Source: Phorcus lineatus
Taxonomy: Eukaryota; Mollusca; Gastropoda; Trochida; Trochidae
NCBI GenBank assembly: GCA_921293015.1
Contig: OV121092.1
Coordinates: 32,309,764-32,373,763 of the forward strand
Length of the DNA: 64,000 bases
Reading direction: 5' to 3'
Below the pieces are notes generated by a model. That model ran no database searches. It was not told where the DNA came from and was given only the letters and a program-made list of their open reading frames with translations. Shown here in pieces: positions 3,001-49,325 of the stretch. Position 1 is the stretch's first letter. Every line of letters starts with the position of its first letter. The position numbers were made by a program, and so were the translations under genes.

Positions 3001-4136
3001 TCACTGTCTGTTTATTGAATAATGGAACCTTATACCATTTTGTCATTTATGATCGGATGCCATGCTAACTGAACATTTTACAGATTGTCCCGCTGAGACG
3101 CCAAAATTAAGAAATAACTGTACCCGCTTACCGGATATATTAACTCAAACCTCTGAATAACAAGGTAACACCAAATATGTCAAACGTATTAATGTCGAGA
3201 TCTGAATTGATAATCAATGTGGTACAGAGGGGTAATGACACATGTCTCTGATTAAATGAGGAAATCCAACTTAATGTAAAGTTAAGCGTTAAAAGCATTC
3301 TGTAAGACCGCTACAACTCAACTGGAAAAAAGTTTGCTTTCGTGTTCGGAGTAAGTCAAAATATCATTAATATTTTATCTACACAGTTTTTCAAGTAATT
3401 TCTACATCAAATTTTTTTTTCATAATAGGACTTTTTTCATCAAAGTCAATATTCCATTAAACACTTTTTTTGTTCACCAAATTCATTTCCTAAGTCAAAC
3501 TGAAAAAGGAACGCGACCCGAAAAAGTACAATAATTGCATGGTCATATTGCAGATCGTGTTCAAAATATAACATTATTTAGTTAGAATATATATCATATA
3601 TTTAGACGTAAACATGTTAACTTTGCTTAACACATATTCCATAAGTCATATACTTTGGCAAAGCCACTTTATTGAACTAATTATTCTTGCAGAGCAAACA
3701 GTGATCACTAACACTAATCTTTCCTGTCTCGTTTGCAATAATTTTGATTTTTATGCCAGTTTTACAGTTTTCGACATTCCTCAATGATCTTATCGCTGTT
3801 TTATGTTCTTTCTTTAAGACCTTGAAGAAGCTTAGCAGGAGCCATTTTCAGTGCACTTTTATCTGGAAAAACCCTTTCCGGCTTGAATATGAAAACATGG
3901 CTGAAAGTTTCAGCAACCATAGTGTGCGTGCACGAAGAACATTCATTGACGTGTAAATGGCATGAAAATCACGAGATGCATACTCTTCAATTGGATATAA
4001 TAGCCTGTCATTCAAAGGTACCCTCACATCTTTTACCGAAATGGAGAAAAGTGAATGTAGGGCTGTTATCAAATATCTGATTCTAAAAAAATAAAAAAAG
4101 GAAATTCATGGGGATATGTTACAAACATAAGGTGAA
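1..4136. other. Non-coding AT-rich flank, no gene recognised
   Basis: No exon-like or family-recognisable frame. Open frames at 220-462, 1569-1859 and 3744-4080 lack homology signs and code only briefly. The stretch around 1790-1860 is locally GC- and CpG-rich. A small MITE sits at 1468-1579. At 525-610 a GC-rich patch contains a GGTTCGAGCTC-like box on the - strand, possibly a SINE scrap, which I could not confirm. Confidence 0.5.
1468..1579 (+). mobile_element. Small MITE, family F (copy 1)
   Basis: Bounded by repeats of GATCAATTTCTCAAT and by inverted AATCTAG...CTAGATT ends. The core TAATATAATACGTCCCGAAG recurs in reverse orientation at 39187-39295, inside transporter intron 3. The two diverged copies at unrelated sites show it is an interspersed element of about 110 bp. 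Confidence 0.6.
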
Positions 4137-5130
4137 TATACTTCTTCATATAGCACCATTAAACATTGGTGTGCTGAATTTAAACGGGGTAGAGTAAGCA
4201 CTAAAGACGAGCCCGGTCTTGGTAGTCCATCGGATGTCACCACAGGTGAAAACATTGAGGCTGTTCTTGACACAATAATGCAAGACAGGCGCGTGACTAT
4301 CAGATACTTACCTTATACTCGCCAAATCAGTAAACCATCAGTTGAACGCATTACACATGAACATTTACATATGAATAAGGTATCAGCACGTTGGGTTCCC
4401 AGAATGTTATCTGAGGACCATGGTCAGTCAGCAACTTCTTGACGAGTAGACCCAGAATAATTTTTCGCTCATGTCTTTACTCAAGATAGAACGTGGGTGC
4501 ATCATTTTGATCCCGAGACAAAAAGCTTAAGCATGCAATGGACGCACAGCACAGCATATCACCCAACCAAAAAAAGTTCAAATCTTGTTCCTTCAGTCGG
4601 CAGGTCATGGCATCCGTTTTCTGGGACTCTTAGGTTGTTATAATGATTGATTATTTACTGAAAGGTTTTACAATCATTGACACTGATTACGCAAATGAAC
4701 TACGACAATTACTAGAAAAAATCAATGAGAAACGAAGGGGTAAACTGCGGTGTGTGGTTGTTGCAGGACAATGCTCCCGTCCACACCATCCAAATTGCAG
4801 TCAGTGCAGCACAGGATTGTGGGTTCAGGATTCTCCCCCACCCTGCCTATTCTCCAGACCTGGCCTCCTCAGATTTCCTCCTCTTCCCTCGACTGAAAAC
4901 AGAGCACTGTGGCCAAAGGTTTGAAAATGACGATGACGTCTTTGCAGCAGTAGAGGAGTTCTTGGGGTCTTGTGATAAGAACTGGTTTTCAGATGTGTTA
5001 CAGATGTTATAAAAACGCTGGAGCAAATGCATTGAGGTCAAGGATGATTATGTCGAAAAATAAGTCATAAAAATGTGAATGTTTCATTGATTTTGATGGT
5101 CAGACCGGAAAGTTTTGGGACTCCCCTCGT
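4137..5130 (+). pseudogene. Inactive mariner (DD34D) transposase
   Basis: Broken reading frame recognisable end to end: STIKHWCAEFKRGRVSTKDE, GENIEAVLDTIMQDRRVTIR, MNKVSARWVPRML, WDS-stop-VV, IDYLLKGFTI, INEKRRGKL, LLQDNAPVH, PHPAYSPDLASSDFLLF. The catalytic D of DNAPVH and the D of SSD are separated by 34 residues, the mariner spacing. Several stops and at least one frameshift (near 4750) inactivate it. The 3' end CAGACCGGAAAGTTTTGGGA followed by CTCCCCTCGTA looks like a mariner terminal repeat; I do not find the matching 5' repeat, so the element is 5'-truncated. Confidence 0.88.
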
Positions 5131-33456: not shown

Positions 33457-33522
33457 ATGTCTCAGGCAGTTGACAACCCTGTGTTTATTGGCGACGTGGA
33501 TGCTTCTCCGACGATAAGAAAG
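33457..33522 (+). CDS. SLC28A3-like: SLC28/CNT coding exon 1 (residues 1-22)
   Basis: Encodes [20 protein letters not shown] and then RK, ending at the donor AAG|gtagaa. The ATG at 33457 directly follows a pyrimidine-rich acceptor-like tract ending in ATGCAG, so this is probably the second exon of the mRNA, with a non-coding exon upstream. Another in-frame ATG at 33451 would be usable only if that acceptor is not spliced. This exon is less certain than the others because CNT N-termini are poorly conserved. Confidence 0.72.
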
Positions 33523-36500
33523 GTAGAAATTTCTTATCAAATACAATGTCATAATAAACAGATCTTAACACTACAAAGAAAATGTTGTCTACTTCAAAGA
33601 AACAACTGAACGACAAGTTTGACAAAGTATTAGAATAAATAATGATATAATGTTTTATGTCTTTTCATGATAAGGTTTTATCAACTTTGAAGAGAGTATT
33701 TTCTTTTCTAATCTTCTCTGGTCGGTACCGTTTGAGGGCACTTAATCGACATTGCAGTTTACCCATCTATCTTGCTAAATTGACGTCATTGCTGTATTTT
33801 TGCAGTGAACATCTTAGTTGTTCAAATGGAACAAATGCAAACGTCAAAGACACATGAACAATTATTGTCATATTTTTAACGTTAAAGACAATATGTTGTA
33901 CAGGTACATGTATCAACCATTGAATCGTTTGGAAAAAGTCATTACCGGTCTGTATAATATAATGTTTAGAAAAGTTAGACGTCGAAATCTATATTTTTCA
34001 AGAGGTTAGCAAGTTGTTGCAAATGATTCCGAGTGTCATTGAAAGAGGATACGTAACGACCTTCCATTTAATGCTATTTTTGATAAACGAGTTAATGATT
34101 CAGTATAGAACGAGCGAAAGTTCGATACCAAAAAATTAACGAGTTTGGTAAAAATATTATTAAATTGAAGGAAGTTTAGTATTATATATCTTGAGGTCAG
34201 CAATCAAGCATGATTGCCGAAAGTGTACTGAAAAAAGATATCAGCGACTTGGCCACCCTTGTGACGGCGGTGCCAACATTGTGACGTCACAACCACACAA
34301 TATTATGACGTCATGCGTGCAGCGGTTACTAGGTTAATATTACCGTATAATCATTACACTGCAGTATCTTGCACGGGCGGGTAATAATTAGCTTTATTGA
34401 TATATAATATGAAATCTCTTTTCAGCGAAAACAGTACACTTTGGATAATGGCGATGAAAAGCATATGAAAGAGGACGATGATGAATTAGATGATGACGAC
34501 GAGGAAGATGACGCCGATTACGAAGCAAACTGCTGCAGTCGCTTGTTGCTGGGTATTCAAAGTGCGGTCGTCTCGTGTTTCCTTAATAACAAGAAGATTC
34601 TCAAATATTTGATCGGTCTAGTGTTGGTGGTTCTCTACTTTGCCTATTTTGGATATGCGATGTATTACGAGTTCGGCGATGATGGCTCTCTCAGACTGCT
34701 TGTATGCACATGTATTGGAGTGTTTCTGGTTGCGCTCAACTGCCTGCCCGATGTGTGTTGGAGTCCCTTCACCAAGTGTGCCTTCTTGATGAAAGCAAGG
34801 CCCATTCTAGGACGCGTTGTGCGCTGGTAGGTATTAACATTATTACCCGTATAGTGAAACATAGGTAGTGACATATTTTCAAATGTGCACATGTGCACGG
34901 TGTGCGCGTTGTCCGCATTCTTCGATAAACATTATTACCCAAATAGTGAAACATAGGTAGTGACATATTTTCAAATGTGCACATGTGCACGTTGTGCGCT
35001 GGTGCGTAATAAAACACGAATGAATTCGCCTCTGACGCTCTTGCTCTTGTTATACAAAATGTGCACTCTTTTTGGAAATGACCTTTAGGGTAATAAAATC
35101 TAAATAGCGAGTTAAGAGTATCAATTGTTCAGCTTATAGTTAATCTCATCATCACAAGGATATCAATCGAGTATGACTTAAACTTGTCTTAAACATGATC
35201 TAGATTCACAAGCAATGACCTACATTTATGAAATAAATGCTATCCTTGACTCCTACTGATACTTTATTTGAAATGTTTTCTATACAACGTGTTTGTAACC
35301 ACAGCATGAAATGTTTAATCAACCGAAAAAATTAATCAAGTCCCTTTTTGCGCTGTATCTGTAAATAATAACATAACAATGCTGAAAGAAATATTATTGT
35401 TGCATTGTTTTTGCTGCTTTTCAAGAGTTCAGCATTATCCAAATCACTTTTGCGTTTTGTTTTTTTGAAGGGTATATTAATACATAAATCTGAAAACCTT
35501 TGTTGTCTGCTTCACTCGTCTAGCTAAATAAATAGACTTTAAAATTAACCTGGATTTGGGATATGAGATTGCTTCCCTGTTTGTGACCTATTTAGATACG
35601 GATATATATAGGTGAATGAAAGAACTGTTAATGGTTTATTCAGGACAGTAGGCTCCACTAGTCCTTTTGCAAAGGGATTCGTTTTGTGCGCAGAAATGAT
35701 TCTCATTTAGAACTTTAGAAAATAACTTCTTACGTCTTGTTAAAATTTGACACAAAACTTAGAAAGCAAGAATTACCATCATACTATCCATCTATGTACG
35801 TTTTATGCCATATCATATTTTGTTAAAGAGTTTATTGAGGCAAAACAAATCTAAAAAATCGCCTTGACCCTTAAAATGGATGGTAACCATTTTCAGATTC
35901 AGTGCAAGCATCTTCACTAATAACAGTGTTAATGTATTTTTTAACTGCAATAAAGAAGTTGGCTATCCAAAAAACTTGGCTTTCATCTCTACGATTCAAA
36001 AGAAGGGATTTTGATATTCGTTACTAATACTCGCCCGTGTCATTCAGTCAGACGCTAACTGATTAAATGATCGCAGAATCACTAAAGCTAATATTTGAAC
36101 TACCTATCCATAAAGTATTATCAACACAACATTACAGCTGAGTATTCTATTTCTGGAAACGAATTAAGACTCTCAATTTATTTTCAGCAAATCTCGGATT
36201 TTTTGTCACGTTAAAGAGCCACTCCGTGATTTTCATAACATATTATTTTCCATTCATACGAACCTAAATGTCATATGTGGTGATATGAAATCAAAACATC
36301 TTACTTTTCATGTCCAAAAGACATTAAATGACAAATACTGGTTTTCCATGAAAGTTTAATAAAGCCTTATAAATGGACAGAGATGTAGATATCACGTCCA
36401 TTATACATGGATAGAAGTTATATAACCAAACAAACACAATCAACTCCTAACTGCCCTCCTGACTGTTTTAGATAAGTCTCCAAAATTACGTTTGACAATC

Positions 36501-39500
36501 TGACGCGGGCCACTGTGCGGTTTTCGATCATAATTACGACGTTTTACCTTCATATTTTCACCGTACAGAACCAATAAGCTTTAAAATGTGTCAATTTTGT
36601 TAACAGTAGATACTTGGCGATCAAATGACACCATTGATTAAGTTTAGAATGTATGACTCCAACAACTCACGGAGTGGCTCTTTAATGATCACAGAATCAC
36701 TAAATTTTTAAGCATTTGAACTACCTATCCACAAAGTAGTATCAACACAACATTTCAGCTGATGATGATTCTATTTCTGGAAGCGAATTAAGACTAACTT
36801 TATTTCCAAATAAAAATTCCGGATATTTGTCACGTTAATCAACTCGTGTTGGTATATGTCATCAACTGAGGCTGGAGTAAGCTTCTCTATGTTTGCCTAT
36901 TGATCCTACTTTATTATAGGGCAGGGTATATAGCAGCGTATGTCATTCTTACAAGTATCTAGGCAACACATGTTGGGAAGCAGATCAATATCCTATATTA
37001 ACTACTAATGGGGGCTATTTGTTTTTGCTGTGAAACCCATGTGAACTTCATACACGGAATGCTAATCTGAGTTTGATTTCTTCTCTGAATTATGGTCAAG
37101 CGATTGAAATGTGAATCGTTACCTTTTATGATTATTTGTCTAAACGACAATGCACTCAAATTAGTAGAAACAAAGTAAAGTAAAGTGCAGTCCCTGTACA
37201 CCGACATCCTAGTAATCCGATATTCCCTGTAAACCGACGTATGTTGATTTGGTTTTTTATTTAAAACATATTTCATTCAATTGTAAAAGGGTTAGGATCA
37301 GGTTATCTTACATATAAACATCCTGTCATCCGAAACAATCCTCAAAATGCATCCTTTTATCTCGAAATTTGTGCCTAGTTAAAAGCAGCGTAAGCTTAGA
37401 AAGGACTGTGCATGTACATGTCGAGGAAATATAACTATATGCTTTAAACTCAAACAGGAAGTTGAACGTAGATAAGCATATAGCATGAGATCATTACATA
37501 CATACGGATATAGAACTTTCTTAAAGAGACTTTCTGGAGTCACCCATGGACAATGTTATCATAAGTATCGGAACAACTGATACAGAACACTAACAATTTC
37601 AGGCTAATCGGTCCAGTTCAGGGCAAAAAGGACAAAAGTCGCGATTAAAGTGACACAGAGTTTGCGCCTCAAAATCTCATTGAAAACTTATCAAAAGCAA
37701 AAGGCTAGATTAGATTTCATATTATATGAAAGTAGGTTAACCGTATCATGTTGGTTAAAGATGCGATTCTTCTCCTGGCATATGCAAGGCGGTTGTTCTA
37801 TTATCATTGAAAAATAGTTATTAGCATACAAATAGAGATTATTACCCGAGGAGGTGTGTCATATGACATTTACGAAACGAGTGTGAATTTTTTTTATCAA
37901 CCGAGCGAGAGCGAGGGTAATACACAAATTTCGCACGAGTTTCGTAAAAGTCATATGACACACCTTCGAGTGTAATAATTTCTTTATTACCGATTCCGTT
38001 CCATCTAAAACGCATTGAAAATATGTCACTGCTTATGATGAACAATATGGGTAATAAATGGCGTTATGAATATATGAGATTTGTTCAGTTGATACCAGTA
38101 TACATGGCAGTTTGGTCCACGTATTTTCCTCAATGATGTTGTCGAAGCCTCTAGTCTTCATCCCCATGGTTTATCCTGTTCTTATGAGAGGGCTTTGTAA
38201 GCCAAGATAATACTCGTGCAGGAGAGCCTTCCAAGCGGCTAAAAGACCACCCCTGCGTTCCCAACAGGGTATTAACTTGGCTTACAAAGTGTTCTTATCT
38301 CATAATATCTCTCTTCAGTTTTCTATTTTTAACCTAAAGATGTTTACTTAAAGGTAAGAATATGAAATGACTCACTCTTTGAAAAAATAAATTCCAAATT
38401 CAAATACCAATCTGACAAGACCGTCTTTCCCGAAAACTTCAAACAGCTCAACACTAAACCCGATGGTCAATATACCACAATAACTGAACTGAATTCAACG
38501 TCAAATGAAAGCCTCTGTCCTCGGCATCGGCCGCAGGGTTGGACAAAAGCCCTGCCTCTTGGCTTAGCCCTTGGGCAGCGGGATTTGTTTTGACGAAAAG
38601 GCCTTATATGTCTCTCGATAGGCAACGATTCCCCCATAATGTTTTTAAGCAAAATAATGCATACTTTCATATATTTCATAGCTCTTGATAATTCTGTCGA
38701 TCAACTCTAAATATTTTGTAGTTTGAAATTGTTCCATATCAAAATAAAGATTGACTGTTTTATTCGGTTTATAAATGTTTTGATAAATATCGTTCTTTGT
38801 CAATAATGTTTTCAACGGTTCCCTAAAAGCAGGTATTGACTTCTCATCAGTATATATATGAATATATATATGTGTATATATTATTTGTATATTGACATAT
38901 CAACTGTGCACATCTCATCCAAACATGTCTACAGGATCTTTTACGTTATGGCTGTGGCTGCTATTGTTCTAAGTCTCATCTTTACCGTCGGTAAAGAAAA
39001 CCCAGACAACCTCCTGTCTCTTGCTGGCCTTGCAGCTTTCATATTCCTGACTTTCATCACGTCATCCAATCCTGCCCGGGTGAGTCCACATATTTTTCCG
39101 AGCAATTTACTATCGTTGATATTCGTATAAAACTATGTCACTGTAGTTTCACTATTCCTCAACAAAAACACAAAAAGGAAAAGAGAAGGTCCCATTGATG
39201 CAACCTAGTTAAAACTAGACGTATCCATCCGTCAATGGCGGACTTCGGGACGTATTATATTAGAGGTAGTTTAACTAGATTGCCATTGATAATTTGGTAT
39301 CTGACAAAATAAATGACAATCAAAGTATATTATTAACACTCACAATGTTTTAGTTGAACATATAATTCTAATAGATAAAAAAAATCCATGATTTTCGAAA
39401 TTGTTATTCATATATTCTTGTCAATACCTTACTTTGGAAAAGGTCCAACTTATTAAAAGATCTTACAATATGTGAATAAAGATTCCTAATCGTGAAGACC

Positions 39501-42500
39501 CCAATAACCTTTTGCACCTTCTTCTTGTCATCTGATATGGCAATAAACTCTTCTTTGCCAAGGCCTCGCTAGTTTACATACTATTACTATTCGGACTCTG
39601 TTAAGTTTACTGCTCATCCAACCTTTGCAGGTAAACTGGCATCCTGTGTTCTGGGGCTTGTGTGTGCAGTACTTCTTTGCCCTATTCATACTGCGTGTGG
39701 ACTGGGGTTATCAGGCTTTCAAGTATCTCGGGGACAGAGTCACGGAGTTCCTCGATCACGCGCAGGAGGGAGCCAAGTTCGTGTTTGGGGATAGCTATCT
39801 GGACCACAGATTTGCATTTTCCGTATGTTGAACATCAAATCATGAGTATGTCGATTCCGTGCAAACTTCTTCCGCAAGGCATAACTCGCGACTACATGAT
39901 ATTACATCCTTGCTACATTACTAAAATTCGTTAATGTTTTGCAACGCTCCCTTCAGCGAATATTGTGTCAGGAGGCCTGTTATTGGAATACAGAGTTCAG
40001 CTGCAGTACGTTGTTAAGCTTGGACAAAAAGGTTGAGAAAGAGCTGCAAGGCTTGAATTAATCATTCCCTTCCTCACACTAAGAAACGAGATAAGAGACT
40101 TCCGGTATCTGCTCGGGCGAGAATCTGAATCACAATATGTCCATGTTCGTCCAACAGGAAATGGGTACCTGGTGAAGCAGTGTGTTCGTGGTGACTTTCT
40201 AGCGACAAATATGTCAGCTTGCATAGACCGGGGTATCAATGTTGGTAGCGCTTTAAGCATGCACTAGTGGATGCGTTATATGAATATCTACATTGTTATC
40301 ATTATCATTAATTATCCAGGTATGAGCACGAGTTATGTCTGGTGGCAGAAGTATATTCAGTGTCAGAAATCGAAGTCATTTTGTTCTTGTAAACTAGATT
40401 TATATATTTAACGTTGTAAACTGAATTTGAAGATTACCTATGTTTCTTCGGATGTTTTACAATTTTCACATTTAACATTTTAACACTGTAACCGAAAGAC
40501 ATGGTACACACTTGTATAAACACCCTAAAATTGTTTTTGAAAAAAAACCTTACCTAAAAAAACGTTTTCTTACACGTATTGTATCATATTTCTAGATACT
40601 ACCAGTGATCGTGTTCTTCAGTACTGCAATATCAGTTCTCTATCATCTCGGCGTTATGCAAGCTATAATCAAAGTTCTAGGCCGTGCTCTAGCTTTTTGT
40701 CTGGACACCACACCAGCCGAGTCTCTGAATGCTGCAGGCAACATTTTCATAGGAATGGTGAGTTGATTGAATAAGGTTAGCTATCATGTGAATGGTGAGC
40801 TGATGTAATAGTATTGTTATTGTTATTGGAATGGTATGATTGAAATGTTGAGTTGATGCCGTCACAAGTGGCATTGTGCTGTTATAGCACGGTGAGCTGA
40901 ACCGATGAATTGATGTTATTATTAGAAGGGCGACTTGAATTGATATTATGTTATTTATGAAATGGTAGGTTGGTGCAATCTTGTGATTGGTAAACAGTGA
41001 GTTAAAGCGGACACGTGAGGTATAATGCTATTATATGTTATGATGAAAACTGAATATGGAATACAACAAAACATTTGATGAAATCTTTGAGTTTCAAAGT
41101 TTATGAAATATAACCATTTCCAAAACAAGAAGGAAGCCTGCTCCAAATAAAAACGGTAAAAAAGGGTAATTTGATATTCAATGATATTCGTACAAGAGAA
41201 TCATCTATTGATATTAAAGCGAACAGCAAGATTAAAATGTAGTTAGAATTGTTTCAACGTAACACTAGAAAGGTTGTTGACACCTTATTAAAAAAATTGA
41301 CCCGATTCGTTGAACAATTTTACCTTTAACAATGATACTTTAACTTCTACCCAGGACTAGGATTGAGATCATTATCATTAACATTACACTAATACAATTA
41401 CCATAACAATAACCATTATCGTTGCATCACAGTCACCAGGTTCATTGTTATTTTATGCCCATGATAATCACTACTGTTTTCGTCATATCAATGATAATAA
41501 TCGAAATTGGCACTATGAGGTACATAAAAAAACACGATTCTATTACCGTTGCCAGAATATCGATTACATATGTCGATAAATGTCATCGTAATTGTTATAT
41601 CAATCATATAAAGTAATGTCAGGAGCATCATCGCATAGGACTTTTCTCGTCTCTTTCCGACATTATGTAATATGTGTCGAAAGAATTACTTTTACTACAA
41701 TAACCAACATAAGCGCCATAATGATTAACAAGCCAACATCATCAACCTCACCAGAATGGGACATGACGATCTTCCATATCCCCTTTTTCACATTCAAATC
41801 ACCTATACCATCCCACTCGCTGTCTGCATTACCATCGGCATCACAATCGGCAATGTTGTCCAAAAAATGTTGTCGCAATCATAACCACATGTCAAATCAT
41901 CAAATGAAAACCATAACCATCACCGAAATTGACATCATTAACAGATTTAGAACCGTTTACACTTGTTTACATTTTCGCTCTTTAGTTTTAACAAGATCGT
42001 TCTATTTTTTTTTCTTTTCTCTTTTTGGTATAGACGGAAGCTCCACTGATGATCAGACCGTTTCTGCCTGTAATGACAAAGTCAGAGATCCACGCTGTGA
42101 TGACCGGAGGCTTCGCTACAATAGCAGGAACAGTGCTAGCTGCATATATATCATTTGGGGTGAGCTTCTTCGAAGTTTGTGTCACATTTATGCAAGAATA
42201 GAATATTTTTAGGGATAATTAAAAGTGAAATGCCGTATACACGTATTGAGTTAACAATTTCGAACGTATTCAAACAGCGCTAACAACTTACATTAGAGTC
42301 AATGCCGTATACACGTATTGAGTTAAGGATTTCGAACGTATTCAAACAGCGCTAACATCTTACATTAGAGTCAATGCCGTATACAAGTATTAAGTTAACG
42401 ATTTCGAACGTATTCAGAACAGCGTTAACATCTTACATTAGAGTCAATGCCGTATACGATTTCGAACGTATTCAAACAGCGCTAATATCTTACATTAAAG

Positions 42501-45500
42501 GGGCAGTAGCACGTTTTTTAAACACCAAATTCATATCAAGGACGCGAAAATAAATGTGTCCAAATAAAATACAATAATAATAAATTAACATGTGTATGGC
42601 GCTTACATGGCACATGCTCAAAGCGTGGACACAACGATTATTTACATGGCTATAGGAGGAAGGTCTATATAGTTATAATGTGCAACAAAGAAGTGTGTTT
42701 TCAACAAGCGTTTGAAAGAGGTAAAGTCAGTTGCTGTTTTATGGCCAGTGGGAGAGAGTTCCAGAGAAGAGGGCCACAACAAGTATAGGATTTCTTACCA
42801 AAAGTTTCAAGTTTTTAGTGAGGTAGAGAAAGCAGATTTTGACTTTGGGAACGCATTTGACTTTCTGGGATGTAAGGGTGAACCACTTTGAGGGATTGCA
42901 TCATAGAGACTTCTGCAAACGAAACACATCAGTTTGAATTCAGTTCTTGATTCTACAGGAAGCCAATGTAGATCTTTCATGACAGGTGTTTTGTGACAGT
43001 GTTTTGGAGTGATGATTCAAAAAGGTGTTATGACGAAGGTATATCATGATTGGTTTGTTATGCGAATCAATTTCCCTATCTCAAATGATTAAAAGGTGTT
43101 TACACAAAAATGGCCACCAGTGGTTTTTGCTTAAGATTTGATTATTTCTACTATGACAACGGATGATAGGATTGAATAATGAGATTTTTTTAACCTCTGA
43201 AGATGATGAATTTGGCATAGACTATTGTTTATTGGTGAAAATTTAAAGAAATTTCCCTATTTCAAATGATTAAAGGGTGTTTACACAAAAATGGCCACTA
43301 TCCCTGCTTAGACTTGATTATTTCTGCTATGACTACGGATGATTGGATTGAATAATGAGATTTTTTTACCCTCTGGAGATGATGAACTTGGCCTTAACTA
43401 TTGTTTATTGGTGTACATTTGAAAAAGACATTTTTTAATACGTGCTACTGTCCCTTTAAATTACAAGATGTTATCCCCTAAAGTGGTGATTTCTGCTGGA
43501 AAGTATAACCTTAATTCAAATCTATTCACCATAACAACAGCAAAATGGTTTAAAGTATCGATTTTCAATCAATCTCGACCCCAAAAAATATAGTTCTGCA
43601 CTGTGTAACGCAGATTATATTTCGGTTGGGCATCAATAAATTACACGTTTTTCTTAAACTTATAAAGCAGAAACTTTACAGATACGGCTGATATTTGCAG
43701 GTTATTCAACTTGTGAGTTTGGATTTGACTCACATAAACGGCTATCTGGATTTTTTTATAATAAGTACTAATGTTCATACTTTTATCAATGTGTAAATGT
43801 TTCGAACTTATAACAGCAAATATTTAGTGCATATAAAAGCCAATCATTCAATGTCAGAATACAACTTTCAATACAATATCTATACAACGCGCAATTTCAC
43901 TAGCAATATCTTTTCCGTTAAGGAGGTTGACACCTAAAATTTAAAAATCATAGTTTTTGTCAATGTTTGAGTTGTTTTGAGTTTACAAAGAAAATATTTA
44001 GTACCTAAAAAGCCGAATATCTAATGTCTTGAAATCACTTAGTGTCTCTTGAAATTGAATTGTTAATAGTCCATTCCTCGCACCTTGCCTTGCTGGCAAT
44101 GTTTACTCAGTCAAGTGGGTTGACACCTGTTCACCTATATACCTAATCTCTGTTTAGGTACCTGCGCAACACCTATTATCAGCGTGCGTTATGTCGGCCC
44201 CTGCTGCTCTGGCCATCTCCAAACTCTCCTGCCCAGAAACACAGAAATCCAAGTCAACATCGGACGATTTCAACAGACTGGAAGGAGGGTGAATTGGGGG
44301 ACATATCTTAAACTCACTGATAAAATGGGCCAGTTTAATCACGTTCAAAACCACCAGATGGCATATTTCGCCTTCTCATTGTACTTTAGTTTATTTGTCC
44401 TGACAACCGTCTAGAATTTGTTTCAAATATTCCATTTTCGGTCTAGATAATTTTAAGCTTATTCGACATTTCCCTCGCAAGATATGCTCACGCCATTCTC
44501 ATTCATTGTCCAATATTGACCTTTTCAGTGTCAGTTCTTTAGCCTACTGCGCCCTCATTTGATAGAAATATAACTTGAAGTTACACACAATCGTCGAAAT
44601 ACTGCCGCAACCACAAAGTGTGACGAACGACTGTAAGGCTTTTTTGAGCCAGTGATTTAGACTGGCGCGAGTTATGTATTTCGGGGTCAATTTTTTCATT
44701 CCTCAAATATTTTTTGCTTACCAGGGATGCGAGGAATGTAATTGAAGCCCTATCAAATGGAGCGTCCATGTCCATAAAGTTGGTTTCAAATGTGGCAGTC
44801 AACATCATGGCCTTCTTAAGTGCTCTCCACTTTGTCAACGCTACTCTCGGATGGCTTGGAGCACGAGCTGGTGTCCCTGATTTATCCTTCCAGGTACCCA
44901 TCCTAACGGATGCAATTACAAAGACAGTGTAATAAACATCAATGATAAACATAGGATAAAACGTGAAGATGATGTTGCTGACCGCAATATTTTCTATGTT
45001 GTGAGGGTTATTTCTGACCTTAATTATAATTAGAGGAAGTCGTGAAGATATATCATGTGAATTCCTGATAATTAGATTCTTTGTCGTAAAGACTGAATGA
45101 TAATTAGAGTATAAGTCGTGAAGATATTATAACTGACTTCCTGATGAATATATTCTTTGTCGTGAAGACCTGAATGATAATTAGAGTATAAGTCGTGAAG
45201 ATATTATAACTGACTTCCTGATGAATATATTCTTTGTCGTTAAGACCTGAATGATAATTAGAGTATAAGTCGTGAAGATATTATAACTGACCTCGATAAT
45301 ATATTTTATTTCATGGATATATCAATTATGACCTAAATGATAGTTAGTAGATAGGTCTGGAAGATGATAAACCTAAATCATGAATATATTTAAAGGTATG
45401 TTCATCACCTCAATGATAAAAAGAGGATATTTCGTGAAATTATTTTTACTAAACTTAACAATAAATTACGCATAGGTCCTAAAGATAACATTTCTAACCT

Positions 45501-48500
45501 CAATAATAGATGGTAAATCGATCTTGATATGTGTGGAAATACGTTTTTATGAAATCAGATTAGTTTTTGATAAATCTTTGCCTTTCTGATACATGCTTTA
45601 CACTGCATTTGTATTTTTTTTTTATATCATTTTGATATATCAATTGTATGAAACTTATGTACATCATCTTGCAGTTCATATGTTCTTATGTGCTATACCC
45701 GGTGGCTCTTTTTATGGGCGTGGAACCGAAAGACTGCAGGGCGGTTGCCGAACTCGTGGGAATAAAAACATTTGCAAACGAATTCATCGCATACAGTCAG
45801 TTGTCTACGTACATTGACAACAGGAAGGTTTATGAAAATTACACACAGTCGTTTAACGACAGTAATTGGGTGCACCATAAAGACGATATCATCCTTCTGG
45901 ACTGGGATAACAGGACTCTCACGGGGGGTATTCTCACAGTAAGTATAATTTCTTACTTACTAACCTTTGAACATTCTTTAGCTCCACTTACTACATTTCT
46001 ATAATGATTGTTTCACTTTACGCTTGAGTCTTGTTACCTTCAAGGAAATACGCGACCAATCACTGAAACATTACATTTGTACTATTACTACTACTGCTGC
46101 TACTACTACTACTGCTGCTACTACTACTACTGCTGCTGCTACTGCTACTGCTACTGCTACTGCTACTGCTACGACTACTACTACTACTACTACTACAACT
46201 ACTTCTACTACTATTACTGCCCCTGCTGCTGCTGCTACTATTGAAAATACTACTACTTCTACTGTTGCTGCTGCCGCTACTGCTACTGCTACTACTTCTT
46301 CTACTTCTACTACTACTACTTTTACTGCTACTGCTGCTGCTACTGCTACTACTACTATTTCTTCTACCACTACTACTTCTACTGCTGCCGCTAATGCTAC
46401 TGCTACTGCAACTACTTCTACTTCTACTATTACTGATACCCCTGCTGCTGCTGCTACTACTGAAAATACTACTACTTCTACTGTTGCTGCTGCCGCTACT
46501 GCTACTGCTACTACTTCTTCTACTTCTTCTACTACTACTTTTACTGCTACTGCTGCTGCTGCTACTGCAACTACTTCTACTTCTACTATTACTGATACCA
46601 CTACTACTACTTCCTCAACTACTACACTACTAATACTACTTTTACTACTACTACTACTACTTTTACTACTACTACTACTACTACTACTACTTTTACTACT
46701 ACTGATACCACTACTTGTGCTACTACTACTACTGTTACTCCTTCTTCTACTACTACTACTAACATATCGTTTATACAATTTTACAGATGATGTTAGAGCT
46801 TATGCAACTTGATCCAATTTCTGAAATCTTTCAATAATTGAAATATCATTTGGGTAAATTGAGTAAAATGAGTAAATATTCATATATCATTAATCATTAT
46901 ACTGTCATCATTTACCTTATGTCTTTAACTTCCATTGGATACAAATATAAATGTTATGACATATAGTACTTAAAGGGACACACAGTATGTGCTAGAATCT
47001 AATTGATCAAATGTTATAAAGATGTTATTTTATGGAGAGGTATTGATTATTTCTGAAAATCATTGTTTAATTACTGATCAGTTCAGTATGGAGACAATAA
47101 ACACGCTTAAGTTGTAATTTATTATCGAAAACTGGAAAATGGCGCTCTTCAATGACTCAAAAGTATTTCTGGAAATTTATTTACATCAGATACAAATAAA
47201 ATATTATGTTGATAGAGTTTAGGATATCAATTAAGTAATATTCATGTAGATTAGATGCATTTTTTTACTTAGCATTTATATGGCGATTCTTCTATTATCA
47301 TTGAAAACGAGAAAATATCCTAATTTTGACATTTAGAGTTAAAGATACCAGTTAAGGGACGATATTTGAAGTGAACTGAAGACAGATGGTATTTTGCTCT
47401 TATTTCAGCCAAATAAATATTTATGAAACATACGCTGTGTCACTTTAAGCAAAATAATTTCATGAATAGAAGTTCAGATAGTTTTTCAAAAACGATTGTC
47501 ATTATCTCGAACAGCAAACTTATAAAAATTATATTTTATTTTTAGCCGGTAATTACGTTTGTACATTGAAACAAGGATTGTAATTGCTTTCCAGAAATGA
47601 TGATACGCATGTACACGTATGACAACTATATTCAATATAAAAATGTTTTACGCAGAAAACAATTTAAAAAATCCTCTTAACCACTGTCAAATTGCAAAAA
47701 GGTAAACATTTCAATTATGTTGAAAGTGTTCTTGAAATAAATAATTGAAATTAAACCTTAACGATCATTCTCAAACAATATGAAATGTTTATCGTTACCA
47801 AACACGTAAAACCTTATATAATATTTAACATTTTTCTATAATGACAACATTAAGATTTTGCAGATGGAACTAATATTCGCATCTCCTATTTTCCTGATCG
47901 TGCAGGTTTTTTTTTTAAAGCTTTGCATGTGAATGGTTCTTATTTGCGTTTTGAATAGTTATTATTTTGATATGTTATTATATCATAGCTCTTTAAAAAA
48001 GAGAACAACTGATGTGTTTGGATGAAATCAGAACTATAATTTTTCAATATTTCCTTTATCAAAGAAACACGATACCTGAGAAGCTAGCTCGAAAAAGCCT
48101 CTTTTTATACAAGTTTGATTATTACATATCATTTTATAACAAATCTATTGCCAATGCTTAAATTCTTGTTTTCGAAATTGATTGATTCTTGCATGCAGAT
48201 GCATACCAAACGTTTGTTCACTTATCTGCGTATAACTGAGAAATATTGTCTACATTGGTAACATTTTACTTTTCATGAGATCCATTAGAAATAAGTGCTA
48301 TAGTGCCTGTAAGTGAAGTGTAAAGTATCAATGGAATAAGTTTACCTCGCTTTTACGATCCCAATGATTAATCATTTTAGAAATAACAAAATGACTCAAA
48401 ATATATTGCCTTAGCACGTGTGTGAATCCTAAACTGTGACAGTATTGTTTTTATAGGGCACACGCATTGGCCGATTATCAATATAACGTTCTACCTATGG

Positions 48501-49325
48501 TTACTCTTTCACACAGTGCACCCCATATACACTATTTTCTGGTTGTTGGTTTTGAATTAATGAGATTTCTTTCATCAGCCACGTTCCGAGGTGATATCTA
48601 CCTATGCTTTGTGTGGATTCTCCAATGTTGGCTCCATGGGGATCATGTTGGGGGGTCTGGGCGCACTTGCACCATCCAGAAAACGTACGATGACGTCATT
48701 GGTATTGCGTGCCATGATCGCTGGAAACATTGCATGCTTTATGACAGGTTGCATTGCAGGTATGGACCTTTACGGACATATTTCAACATATAAAATCATT
48801 TGTTTCATATCATTGTATAATAAAGGGATATTCATTTGTATGACTTATATCTTGTCAGTGCATCAATGAATAATATGGTGATTCGTAATATCAAAGTTCA
48901 CAATAATCCATTAAAAATTTGTTCTGTATATCATTGGTTAATTTGATGGTATATGTGTACAAAATCTTGGTTTTTGGAGTTCACCCCATATTTTTCTATG
49001 CCAGCTCCTCATTGTATTAAACGTGGGCCTAGATTTCCGAAGCTCTCTTAGTGATAAGATAGTCGTAGGTCAATGCTAATGTATGGCTTACTACTATCTT
49101 AGCACTAAGAGAGCTTCGAAAATTTAGGCCCTGGCTTAAACCGTTATAAAAGTTAAATTGGTAATTGCATCAGGTAGGAAAAGCTACATGTTATAAATAA
49201 TAGTTTGGCCTCGGTCTTGGAGAAAAACAAATATGTAAACTTAAAGTAATCATATTCTTGGTTAATTCTTACTACATGTCTCTGTTCTAAATTTTTTTGC
49301 AGGTTTGATGTATAAAGAATTTTGA
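33457..49325 (+). CDS. SLC28A3-like: Concentrative nucleoside transporter (SLC28/CNT family), complete, 11 coding exons
   Basis: Predicted 619-residue polytopic plasma-membrane protein that couples inward Na+ flow to nucleoside uptake. Coding exons: 33457-33522, 34426-34826, 38935-39079, 39631-39822, 40596-40757, 42034-42159, 44158-44288, 44725-44893, 45675-45938, 48579-48759 and 49303-49325. Every intron is GT-AG and the frame stays open throughout. In order the protein has an acidic cytoplasmic N-terminus (D/E-rich about 38-53), hydrophobic segments from about residue 82, the substrate-site motif GMTEAPL (321-327), [14 protein letters not shown] (347-360), the family signature [12 protein letters not shown] (493-504; family form G/A-X-K-X3-NEFVA-Y/M/F) and [15 protein letters not shown]. 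Human CNT1 and CNT3 are about 650 and 690 residues, so this protein is short; the deficit includes a C-terminus that stops six residues after exon 10. The start follows an acceptor-like tract, so a 5'UTR exon probably lies upstream. The paralogue assignment (A1/A2/A3) is not resolvable here. Confidence 0.95.
34055..34389. mobile_element. Interspersed element family G (copy 2, uninterrupted)
   Basis: Begins CCTTCCATTTAATGCTATTT and ends CTGCAGTATCTTGCACGGGC followed by GGGTAATAA. It is the SINE-free counterpart of 8815-9356. It lies in transporter intron 1 and ends about 36 bases before the exon 2 acceptor. Contains TGACGTCA twice (34284 and 34308 areas). Confidence 0.78.
34426..34826 (+). CDS. 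SLC28A3-like: SLC28/CNT coding exon 2
   Basis: Follows the acceptor CTCTTTTCAG and ends at the donor CTG|gtaggt, two bases into a codon. It encodes the acidic cytoplasmic segment, a Cys-Cys-Ser linker, and the first two hydrophobic helices (about residues 82-105 and 112-130). The CNT-like stretch [10 protein letters not shown] and the end [11 protein letters not shown] join in frame to exon 3. A TAG lies immediately after the donor, so unspliced RNA would terminate here. Confidence 0.93.
34812..35010 (+). repeat. Local duplication spanning the exon 2 splice donor
   Basis: Two copies about 90 bp apart of AACATTATTACCC...ATAGTGAAACATAGGTAGTG...TTTTCAAATGTGCACATGTG. The exon 2 end GTTGTGCGCTG|GTAGG is echoed as GTTGTGCGCTGGTGCG at about 34994-35009. 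Confidence 0.88.
36211..36685. mobile_element. TTAA MITE family B (copy 1)
   Basis: Terminal inverted repeats TTAAAGAGCCACTCCGTGA and TCACGGAGTGGCTCTTTAA are exact. The interior (GTGATATGAAATCAAAACAT, TTCGATCATAATT...ACGACGTTTTACCTTCAT) matches the copy at 60636-61071. About 475 bp, no transposase, in intron 2. Confidence 0.92.
37838..37980. repeat. Inverted repeat element in intron 2
   Basis: Left ATTATTACCCGAGGAGGTGT and GTCATATGACATTTACGAAA oppose right TTTCGTAAAAGTCATATGAC and ACACCTTCGAGTGTAATAAT. The centre has GAGCGAGAGCGAGGGTAATA. Related-looking inverted structure at 55020-55200. Confidence 0.75.
38191..38292. repeat. Short inverted repeat
   Basis: CTTTGTAAGCCAAG (about 38193) and CTTGGCTTACAAAG (about 38277) pair as a 14-bp stem around a roughly 70-base loop. 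Confidence 0.75.
38935..39079 (+). CDS. SLC28A3-like: SLC28/CNT coding exon 3
   Basis: Acceptor TCTACAG|GATC. The first base completes Trp156, and the exon ends CGG|gtgagt in phase 0. It encodes two hydrophobic segments ([16 protein letters not shown] and [16 protein letters not shown]) and ends in TSSNPAR, aligning with the CNT TM3-TM4 region. Confidence 0.94.
39187..39295 (-). mobile_element. Small MITE, family F (copy 2)
   Basis: Reverse-strand relative of 1468-1579, with CTTCGGGACGTATTATATTA and ends CTAGTTAAAACTAG / GTTTAACTAGATTG. Lies in SLC28 intron 3. Confidence 0.6.
39631..39822 (+). CDS. SLC28A3-like: SLC28/CNT coding exon 4
   Basis: Acceptor TTTGCAG|GTAAAC, donor TCC|gtatgt, 64 codons in phase 0. 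It encodes [19 protein letters not shown], the [10 protein letters not shown] stretch, and [19 protein letters not shown]. The FVFG and D/E-x-Y-x-DH-x-FAF pattern is a strongly conserved CNT block. Confidence 0.95.
40000..40312. mobile_element. Probable diverged SINE-like repeat in intron 4
   Basis: Contains AGGAAATGGGTACCTGGTGA, GACCGGGGTATCAATGTTGG and TAGCGCTTTAAGCATGCACT, then a TTATCATTATCATTAATTA tail, an arrangement typical of SINE bodies with simple-sequence tails. No tRNA head was found. The - strand frame at 39997-40260 lies within it. Confidence 0.4.
40596..40757 (+). CDS. SLC28A3-like: SLC28/CNT coding exon 5
   Basis: Acceptor TTTCTAG|ATACTA, donor ATG|gtgagt, 54 codons. It contains [20 protein letters not shown] and [17 protein letters not shown]. 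The last codon is Met322, the residue before the TE of the nucleoside-binding motif. The donor motif is imperfectly repeated downstream at 40791-40800. Confidence 0.95.
40753..40845 (+). repeat. Degenerate repeats of the exon 5 donor at the start of intron 5
   Basis: AGGAATG|GTGAGTTGAT (true donor) is followed by GTGAATGGTGAGCTGATG (about 40788) and TTGGAATGGTATGATTG (about 40829), so donor-like sites recur at about 37-bp spacing. Confidence 0.65.
42034..42159 (+). CDS. SLC28A3-like: SLC28/CNT coding exon 6
   Basis: Acceptor after a long T tract (GGTATAG|ACGGAA), donor GGG|gtgagc, 42 codons. It encodes [20 protein letters not shown] and then [20 protein letters not shown]. The Glu of TEAP (residue 324) corresponds to a conserved substrate/cation-site acidic residue. 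Thr355-Val356 occupy the selectivity pair. A 206-codon open frame over this exon is in a different frame. Confidence 0.96.
42229..42496 (+). repeat. 72-bp tandem array (about 3.7 copies) in intron 6
   Basis: AATGCCGTATACACGTATTG...TTTCGAACGTATTC...CAGCGCTAACA...TTACATTAGAGTC repeats with starts near 42229, 42301, 42373 and 42447. The last unit has an internal deletion. The array stops exactly where MITE A begins. Confidence 0.95.
42495..43459. mobile_element. TTAA MITE family A carrying a nested repeat and an internal duplication
   Basis: Termini TTAAAGGGGCAGTAGCACG and CGTGCTACTGTCCCTTTAA are inverted repeats. About 42583-43040 is a foreign insert (starts ATGTGTATGGCGCTTACATG, contains ACATGCTCAAAGCG like the SINE S2 tail, then GGGAGAGAGTTCCAGAGAAG and AGGAAGCCAATGTAGAT). 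The MITE core then occurs twice in tandem (about 43070-43250 and 43251-43425). Lies in SLC28 intron 6. Confidence 0.88.
44158..44288 (+). CDS. SLC28A3-like: SLC28/CNT coding exon 7
   Basis: Acceptor TGTTTAG|GTACCT, donor GG|gtgaat, ending two bases into a codon. It encodes [20 protein letters not shown] and then [20 protein letters not shown]. This matches the CNT block V-P-x-x-HLL-x-A-x-VMSAPA followed by the PET-x-K cytoplasmic loop. Confidence 0.95.
44725..44893 (+). CDS. SLC28A3-like: SLC28/CNT coding exon 8
   Basis: Acceptor CTTACCAG|GGATGC; the first base completes Gly408. Donor CAG|gtaccc. It encodes [20 protein letters not shown] and then [20 protein letters not shown], the conserved N-x-x-EA-x-x-GA-x-x-S-x-x-L-V-x-N-I/V-A-V-N block of CNTs, ending DLSFQ. 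Confidence 0.96.
45040..45300 (+). repeat. 77-bp tandem array in intron 8
   Basis: GAATGATAATTAGAGTATAA...GTCGTGAAGATATTATAACT...GACTTCCTGATGAATATATT...CTTTGTCGT-AAGACCT repeats at 45095, 45172 and 45249, with decayed units on both sides (about 44930-45500 shows weaker echoes). Confidence 0.93.
45675..45938 (+). CDS. SLC28A3-like: SLC28/CNT coding exon 9 with family signature
   Basis: Acceptor CTTGCAG|TTCATA, donor ACA|gtaagt, 88 codons. It opens with [18 protein letters not shown] and carries the CNT signature [12 protein letters not shown], with Ile in place of the usual Val in NEFVA. The following loop has candidate N-glycosylation sequons (NYT, NDS, NRT). It is longer and more polar than the vertebrate CNT3 loop, which I compare only from memory. 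Confidence 0.96.
46081..46760. repeat. Compound trinucleotide microsatellite (ACT/GCT)n in intron 9
   Basis: About 680 bases of ACT, GCT and TCT triplets. An internal block (about 46226-46330) is repeated near 46440-46560 with the same GAAAATACTACTACTTCTAC phrase, indicating block duplication. Open frames of up to 262 codons on both strands are low-complexity artefacts. Confidence 0.97.
46970..47448. mobile_element. TTAA MITE family C (copy 2) in intron 9
   Basis: Ends TTAAAGGGACACACAGTATG and CATACGCTGTGTCACTTTAA are imperfect inverted repeats. About 480 bp without coding potential. Sister of 27265-27719. Confidence 0.8.
47449..48578. other. Rest of SLC28 intron 9, nothing recognised
   Basis: AT-rich intron; no exon or repeat identified apart from homopolymer T runs. 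Confidence 0.5.
48579..48759 (+). CDS. SLC28A3-like: SLC28/CNT coding exon 10
   Basis: Acceptor TTCATCAG|CCACGT, donor GCAG|gtatgg, ending one base into a codon. It encodes [32 protein letters not shown] and [18 protein letters not shown], the conserved C-terminal CNT helices. Overlapping open frames of 108 and 92 codons are read-through of this exon in one wrong and one correct frame. Confidence 0.96.
49025..49131. mobile_element. Palindromic MITE family P (copy 2) in intron 10
   Basis: 107 bp, almost perfectly self-complementary from end to end: GGGCCTAGATTTCCGAAGCT and CTCTTAGTGATAAGATAGTC oppose GACTATCTTAGCACTAAGAG-type text and AGCTTCGAAAATTTAGGCCC. Lies between exons 10 and 11. Confidence 0.92.
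49303..49325 (+). CDS. SLC28A3-like: SLC28/CNT terminal coding exon 11
   Basis: Acceptor ATTTTTTTGCAG|GT. Completes Gly613, adds LMYKEF and stops at TGA (49323-49325). Vertebrate CNTs have much longer tails, so this is a very short C-terminus. An alternative longer last exon further downstream cannot be excluded, but the acceptor is strong and a poly(A) signal follows 73 bases after the stop. Confidence 0.8.

Follow-up and report, generated by a model that had tools for sequence, protein, structure and literature searches.

A Phorcus lineatus SLC28 gene with a CNT2-like base pocket within a diversified family of paralogs

Gene structure and family assignment

The window, a stretch of 64,000 nucleotides of the Phorcus lineatus assembly (contig OV121092.1), holds one SLC28/CNT gene, which lies on the + strand at 33457-49325. 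Spliced at GT-AG boundaries, it comprises 11 coding exons totalling 1860 nt, which encode a protein of 619 aa (Table 1). The spliced frame has no internal stops and ends with TGA at 49325, and both a GT donor and an AG acceptor are present at each of the ten introns separating the coding exons. Because another in-frame ATG is present two codons 5' of the start codon used, the residue numbering could move by two.

The initial annotation had called this gene an SLC28 transporter, and the assignment holds, since three CNT domains scored over their Pfam cut-offs (PF01773, 5.3e-26, 91.4 bits against a cut-off of 27; PF07670, 2.4e-18, 67.0 bits against 29.6; PF07662, 1.1e-71, 241.3 bits against 32.3) and the protein is similar to solved CNTs across its core. 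The closest proteins of solved structure are bovine CNT3 (8tzd and 8tz1, 5.5e-149), human CNT3 (6ksw, 6.4e-138) and vcCNT of Vibrio cholerae (3tij, 1.2e-86). The ribose-binding residues E500, F566, N568 and S571 are all kept, together with the sodium-site N317. CNT3 has the same ribose residues and a core identity of 57% (bovine, 8tz1), and vcCNT has the ribose residues and the N317 equivalent at 41% core identity; as the vcCNT match begins only at window residue 182, the bacterial protein is without the N-terminal helices. The loop between HP2 and TM10 is longer in the window protein than in bovine CNT3 (34 residues versus 12, counted between aligned blocks), and the long loop of exon 9 carries N-glycosylation-type sequons (NYT, NDS and NRT), as read from the sequence.

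Splicing of the window also returned, with the same numbering, the residues that the annotation had singled out as the substrate-site quartet, Gly321-Met322 and Thr355-Val356. As claimed, Gly-Met ends exactly at the exon 5/6 junction (40757|42034), which sits between the codons of Met322 and Thr323 and splits no codon, and the alignment to bovine CNT3, human CNT3 and vcCNT is free of gaps at this junction.

Table 1. Coding exons and pocket residues of the SLC28 gene (positions in the window)
Feature	Position	Strand	Basis
Coding exon 1 (aa 1-22)	33457..33522	+	splicing; similarity search of paralogs did not recover exon 1
Coding exon 2, covers the acidic N terminus and the first membrane helices	34426..34826	+	splicing; like exons in several paralogs
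Coding exon 3	38935..39079	+	splicing, paralog comparison
Coding exon 4, bulk of PF01773 (Nucleos_tra2_N, aa 186-258)	39631..39822	+	splicing, Pfam
Coding exon 5, last residues are hairpin HP1 N317-I-F-I-G321-M322; starts PF07670 (aa 267-364)	40596..40757	+	
Gly321 (GGA, 40752-40754) and Met322 (ATG, 40755-40757), equivalents of hCNT3 G340/Q341	40752..40757	+	alignment; hCNT1/2 pair correspondence from PMC5465479 (in excerpt)
Coding exon 6, T323-E-A-P and TM7	42034..42159	+	splicing, alignment
Thr355 (ACA, 42130-42132) and Val356 (GTG, 42133-42135), equivalents of hCNT3 S374/V375	42130..42135	+	alignment; PMC5465479 (in excerpt)
Coding exon 7, PF07662 (aa 369-613) begins	44158..44288	+	splicing, Pfam
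Coding exon 8	44725..44893	+	splicing, paralog comparison
Coding exon 9, HP2 with ribose-site Glu500 (hCNT3 E519) and long loop	45675..45938	+	
Coding exon 10, TM10 with F566, N568, S571 (hCNT3 F563, N565, S568)	48579..48759	+	
Coding exon 11, final codons and stop TGA	49303..49325	+	splicing

Several repeats lie in the introns of the gene. Intron 9 contains a (TAC)n trinucleotide array at 46080-46761 (227.7 copies, 72% match), which is spanned by an open frame of 276 aa, probably without meaning, and further tandem arrays were found at 42229-42457 (72-base unit, intron 6), 43069-43420 (176-base unit, intron 6) and 45016-45305 (77-base unit, intron 8). Outside the gene, transposase-like remains at 4131-5009 on the + strand gave weak Pfam matches to HTH_32 and DDE_3, both under the cut-off; they look to be of mariner type.

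SLC28 paralogs in the same genome

A PF07662 profile search of the 957.8-Mb assembly, in which the window lies on C19, gave at least 47 exon matches, which fall into at least 13 SLC28 loci. Ten of these lie on C19, from 28.7 to 42.1 Mb, while C1 carries two and C17 a single one. The pocket could be read in 12 loci, all 12 quartets differ, and GM/TV occurs in the window gene only (Table 2).

Table 2. Pocket quartets of the 12 readable SLC28 genes
Locus	Label	Quartet
Window gene		GM/TV
C19:28.68 Mb		GQ/SV
C19:32.57 Mb (L010-L012)	P32.57	GM/SV
C19:34.66 Mb	P34.66	GF/SM
C19:34.84 Mb	L014	GS/TT
C19:35.25 Mb	L015	GP/SI
C19:38.45 Mb	L016	GL/GV
C19:38.47 Mb	L017	GM/GV
C19:38.84 Mb (L018)	P38.84	GQ/GV
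C19:42.06 Mb		GQ/PI
C17	PC17	GL/SV
C1:10.42 Mb	L022	GW/SN

The exon pieces from the 12 readable genes contain no stops. At the remaining locus, L021 (C1:10.41 Mb), which adjoins the similar L022, exons 5 and 6 were not recognised and exons 9 and 10 have one stop each, so that it looks like a broken copy. The complete ribose set E-F-N-S is found in half of the readable genes (the window gene and those at 28.68, 32.57, 34.66 and 38.84 Mb and on C17), although these six are not all canonical, since the C17 gene has Ser at Glu324. In the genes L014, L015, L016 and L017 the ribose Glu is replaced by N, S, P and P, respectively. Their cores are otherwise readable, and the loss of the Glu suggests that these four paralogs may carry other substrates or may have lost transport. 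N317 and G321 are invariant across all 14 rows of the site table.

Codon 322 is followed by a GT donor, and exon 6 is preceded by an AG acceptor, in 12/12 readable genes. The residue reading the base is the final exon 5 codon in every one of them, and 11 of these codons end in G (CAG, ATG, CTG, TCG, CCG, TGG), the other being TTT; the splice donor after codon 322 may restrict which residues can be reached there.

Seven different residues occupy the Gln site 322 among the 12 readable genes, with Met found three times at this site, Thr twice at 355 and Val seven times at 356. If the residues assorted independently, about 0.3 GM/TV genes would be expected in 12, or about 0.1 with frequencies excluding the window gene (hand arithmetic). 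A single occurrence among genes so diversified is mildly, not strongly, surprising. The initial annotation had not anticipated a family. As the genome has at least 13 loci and all 12 readable pockets differ, a lone CNT2-like quartet weighs less than it seems, and the diversified family may be a better lead than the window gene alone. Among the matches listed in a search of invertebrate and molluscan SLC28 literature, no such expansion was found in titles and abstract openings, which is a weak negative; the consulted part of PMC9993606 has nothing on SLC28.

Relatives, tree and variability

For the outside comparison, 39 relatives (36 from prokaryotic genomes and 3 from viral contigs) were fetched from prokaryotic and viral collections with peptide patterns which do not cover the quartet and which reach close relatives only. 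Site 322 is Gln in 31 of them, and neither Met at 322 nor Thr at 355 occurs in any of these 39 prokaryotic and viral relatives. Trees were built from the 12 own-genome genes, bovine CNT3, and 13 bacterial rows from the 39 relatives plus vcCNT as outgroup, thus with no CNT1 or CNT2 row; they did not include exons 1-3 and 11 (nor, in the main tree, exon 4), and L021 was kept out of both alignments and trees.

Eleven of the 12 own-genome genes group together in a clade (98/98) that excludes bovine CNT3, its sister (96/89). P38.84 falls outside, in agreement with its gene structure, since it lacks the intron that separates exons 6 and 7 in all 11 clade members. Its placement is nevertheless unsure, because a single clade of all 12 genes is not firmly rejected (p-AU 0.056); it has an intact ribose site, 59% core identity to the window protein and a GQ/GV pocket as in vcCNT. 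The window gene, on a short branch (0.14), groups with P34.66 (89/93), and the two are joined by P32.57 and PC17 (80/89). Two pairings, both named after the tree had been seen, were rejected, namely the window gene with P32.57 alone (p 0.009) and the window gene with bovine CNT3 (p-AU 0.004), the latter being the proxy by which CNT2 descent was tested in a tree lacking CNT1 and CNT2. The fewest changes on the tree are at least nine at site 322 (three for M versus the rest) and seven at site 355 (two for T versus the rest).

The initial annotation had left open whether the quartet is ancestral or convergent. This question now leans towards convergence, as the gene is nested in the 98/98 own-genome clade and its nearest members have Ser at 355, from which GM/TV is probably a derived state convergent with that of CNT2. 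In the simplest reading of the tree, Thr355 likely appeared along the branch of the window gene alone.

P32.57, which lies on the same strand at a distance of about 220 kb, shares GM at HP1 with the window gene and has Ser rather than Thr at 355. The two genes are 35% identical at third codon positions and 76% at first and second positions, and therefore look old and maintained by purifying selection. Values of dN/dS were unusable: four of the six pairs compared had saturated dS, another had a dS of 3.4, and the last failed because of a stop codon.

The idea that site 322 evolves faster than any other site in the protein was rejected (rate rank 132 of 407). In a comparison of variability between the 11-gene clade and bacteria, in which 15 representatives stood for the 36 prokaryotic genome loci and the 3 viral loci were not used, the gain at site 322 ranked 15 of 285 and that at the ribose Glu ranked 7; with only the six ribose-intact genes the result for site 322 was weaker (rank 26 of 294). 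From the ranks 15 of 285 and 132 of 407, the base site has become more variable in the 11-gene clade, yet it is no outlier in the whole protein.

The base pocket and its predicted selectivity

The CNT2-like pocket of the window protein is real. The identification of the quartet as that of human purine-selective SLC28A2/CNT2 agrees with the names of the human CNT1 mutant S319G/Q320M/S353T/L354V, which becomes CNT2-like, while S319G/Q320M by itself makes the transporter broad (PMC7440666, in excerpt). The hCNT3 counterparts of the four positions are G340/Q341/S374/V375 according to the same excerpt, with which the part of PMC5465479 used here agrees. Human and bovine CNT3 have GQ/SV in our alignment and vcCNT has GQ/GV, so that the window protein does not have the CNT3 quartet, and Gln at the Met position, which had been claimed for human CNT3 and vcCNT, is confirmed in both and extends to bovine CNT3.

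In sodium medium, hCNT3 G340C lowers the uptake of thymidine, adenosine, inosine and guanosine relative to uridine, Q341C lowers that of cytidine and thymidine, S374C has a normal profile and V375C is still broad (PMC5465479, in excerpt). It is reported in the consulted part of PMC4139061 that Gln154 of vcCNT is in direct contact with the base and that Val188 packs against it, so that Met at this position removes a polar base contact. Thr355 may have little effect where the background is like that of CNT3, given the S374C and V375C profiles. In hCNT1, the background of the swaps, Thr-Val took the transporter on to the CNT2 type, and by analogy it could act likewise in the window protein. Residues beyond the quartet matter as well, since hCNT3 and vcCNT have the same listed contact residues and a different base preference (PMC7440666, in excerpt, where the Q and A mutants of hCNT3 E519 show no uridine binding).

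We consider it probable, from sequence comparison, that the window gene encodes an intact SLC28 importer of the own-genome expansion, whose pocket went from GQ/SV to GM/TV in convergence with CNT2 and which prefers purines. The product, presumably expressed and active, would be an elevator-type, sodium-coupled nucleoside importer, one of about a dozen such genes in this genome. Its base pocket would probably derive from a CNT3-like GQ/SV, a starting state that we infer, by the replacements of Gln by Met and Ser by Thr, and this combination, with which human CNT1 takes on CNT2 behaviour, would most likely have been reached independently. The predicted substrates are most likely purine nucleosides (adenosine, inosine, guanosine) and uridine, with cytidine and thymidine imported poorly; the purine preference put forward in the initial annotation is plausible on these grounds, and its interpretation as a whole is partly supported.

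The alternatives to this reading overlap in part, and their probabilities need not add up to one. It is possible, though we would not expect it, that the CNT3-like background keeps pyrimidine transport and thus a broad selectivity despite the quartet, as could be argued from the broad uptake left by S374C and V375C, from the unequal preferences of hCNT3 and vcCNT and from the core identity to bovine CNT3; against this stand the replacement of the base-contacting Gln by Met, with the effect of Q341C on cytidine and thymidine, and the fact that the CNT2-like hCNT1 mutant carries Thr and Val as its changes in TM7. We find it unlikely that the pockets of the paralogs merely drift under weakened constraint and that GM/TV is an accident without functional meaning. 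The seven residues at site 322, the assortment estimate of 0.1-0.3 genes, the loss of the ribose Glu in four paralogs and the stops at one locus would fit such drift, but the window gene retains all four ribose residues on a short branch, it shows conservation at first and second codon positions, and E-F-N-S is kept in 6/12 genes.

Within vertebrates, CNT1 and CNT2 are each other's closest relatives. This counts against an ancestral GM/TV shared with vertebrate CNT2 by descent, which we hold to be very improbable even though the four residues are identical and the tree contains no CNT2 row, because the quartet is absent from the nearest paralogs, from bovine CNT3 and from the 39 fetched prokaryotic and viral relatives, and the pairing with bovine CNT3 was rejected; in this tree, descent of the quartet from a CNT2-like ancestor, or membership of the gene in CNT2, is not supported. 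It would be more surprising still if the gene were not expressed or if its true transcript had another exon 5/6 junction, given the ten GT-AG introns, the open 619-aa frame, the donor and acceptor shared by all readable genes and the gap-free alignment to bovine CNT3. Convergence on the CNT2 quartet in a purine-preferring importer thus stays our preferred reading, with the convergence itself likely.

If the uptake prediction is true, evolution has repeated a four-residue switch that experimenters engineered in human CNT1. To hypothesize further, and only tentatively, one SLC28 gene may have given rise to a dozen importers in which the base-reading position was retuned gene by gene (Gln, Met, Leu, Phe, Ser, Pro or Trp), with at least one copy re-evolving the CNT2 purine pocket and the four without ribose Glu carrying substrates other than ordinary nucleosides. 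If the uptake prediction holds, the genome also offers a natural series (GQ/SV, GM/SV, GM/TV, GL/SV, GF/SM and GQ/GV) in which the residue for base preference can be tested. P32.57 (GM/SV) and the window gene (GM/TV) are one quartet residue apart, although the proteins differ elsewhere (68% core identity), and for P32.57 a broad, CNT3-like selectivity is predicted from its Ser at 355 and the hCNT1 S319G/Q320M precedent.
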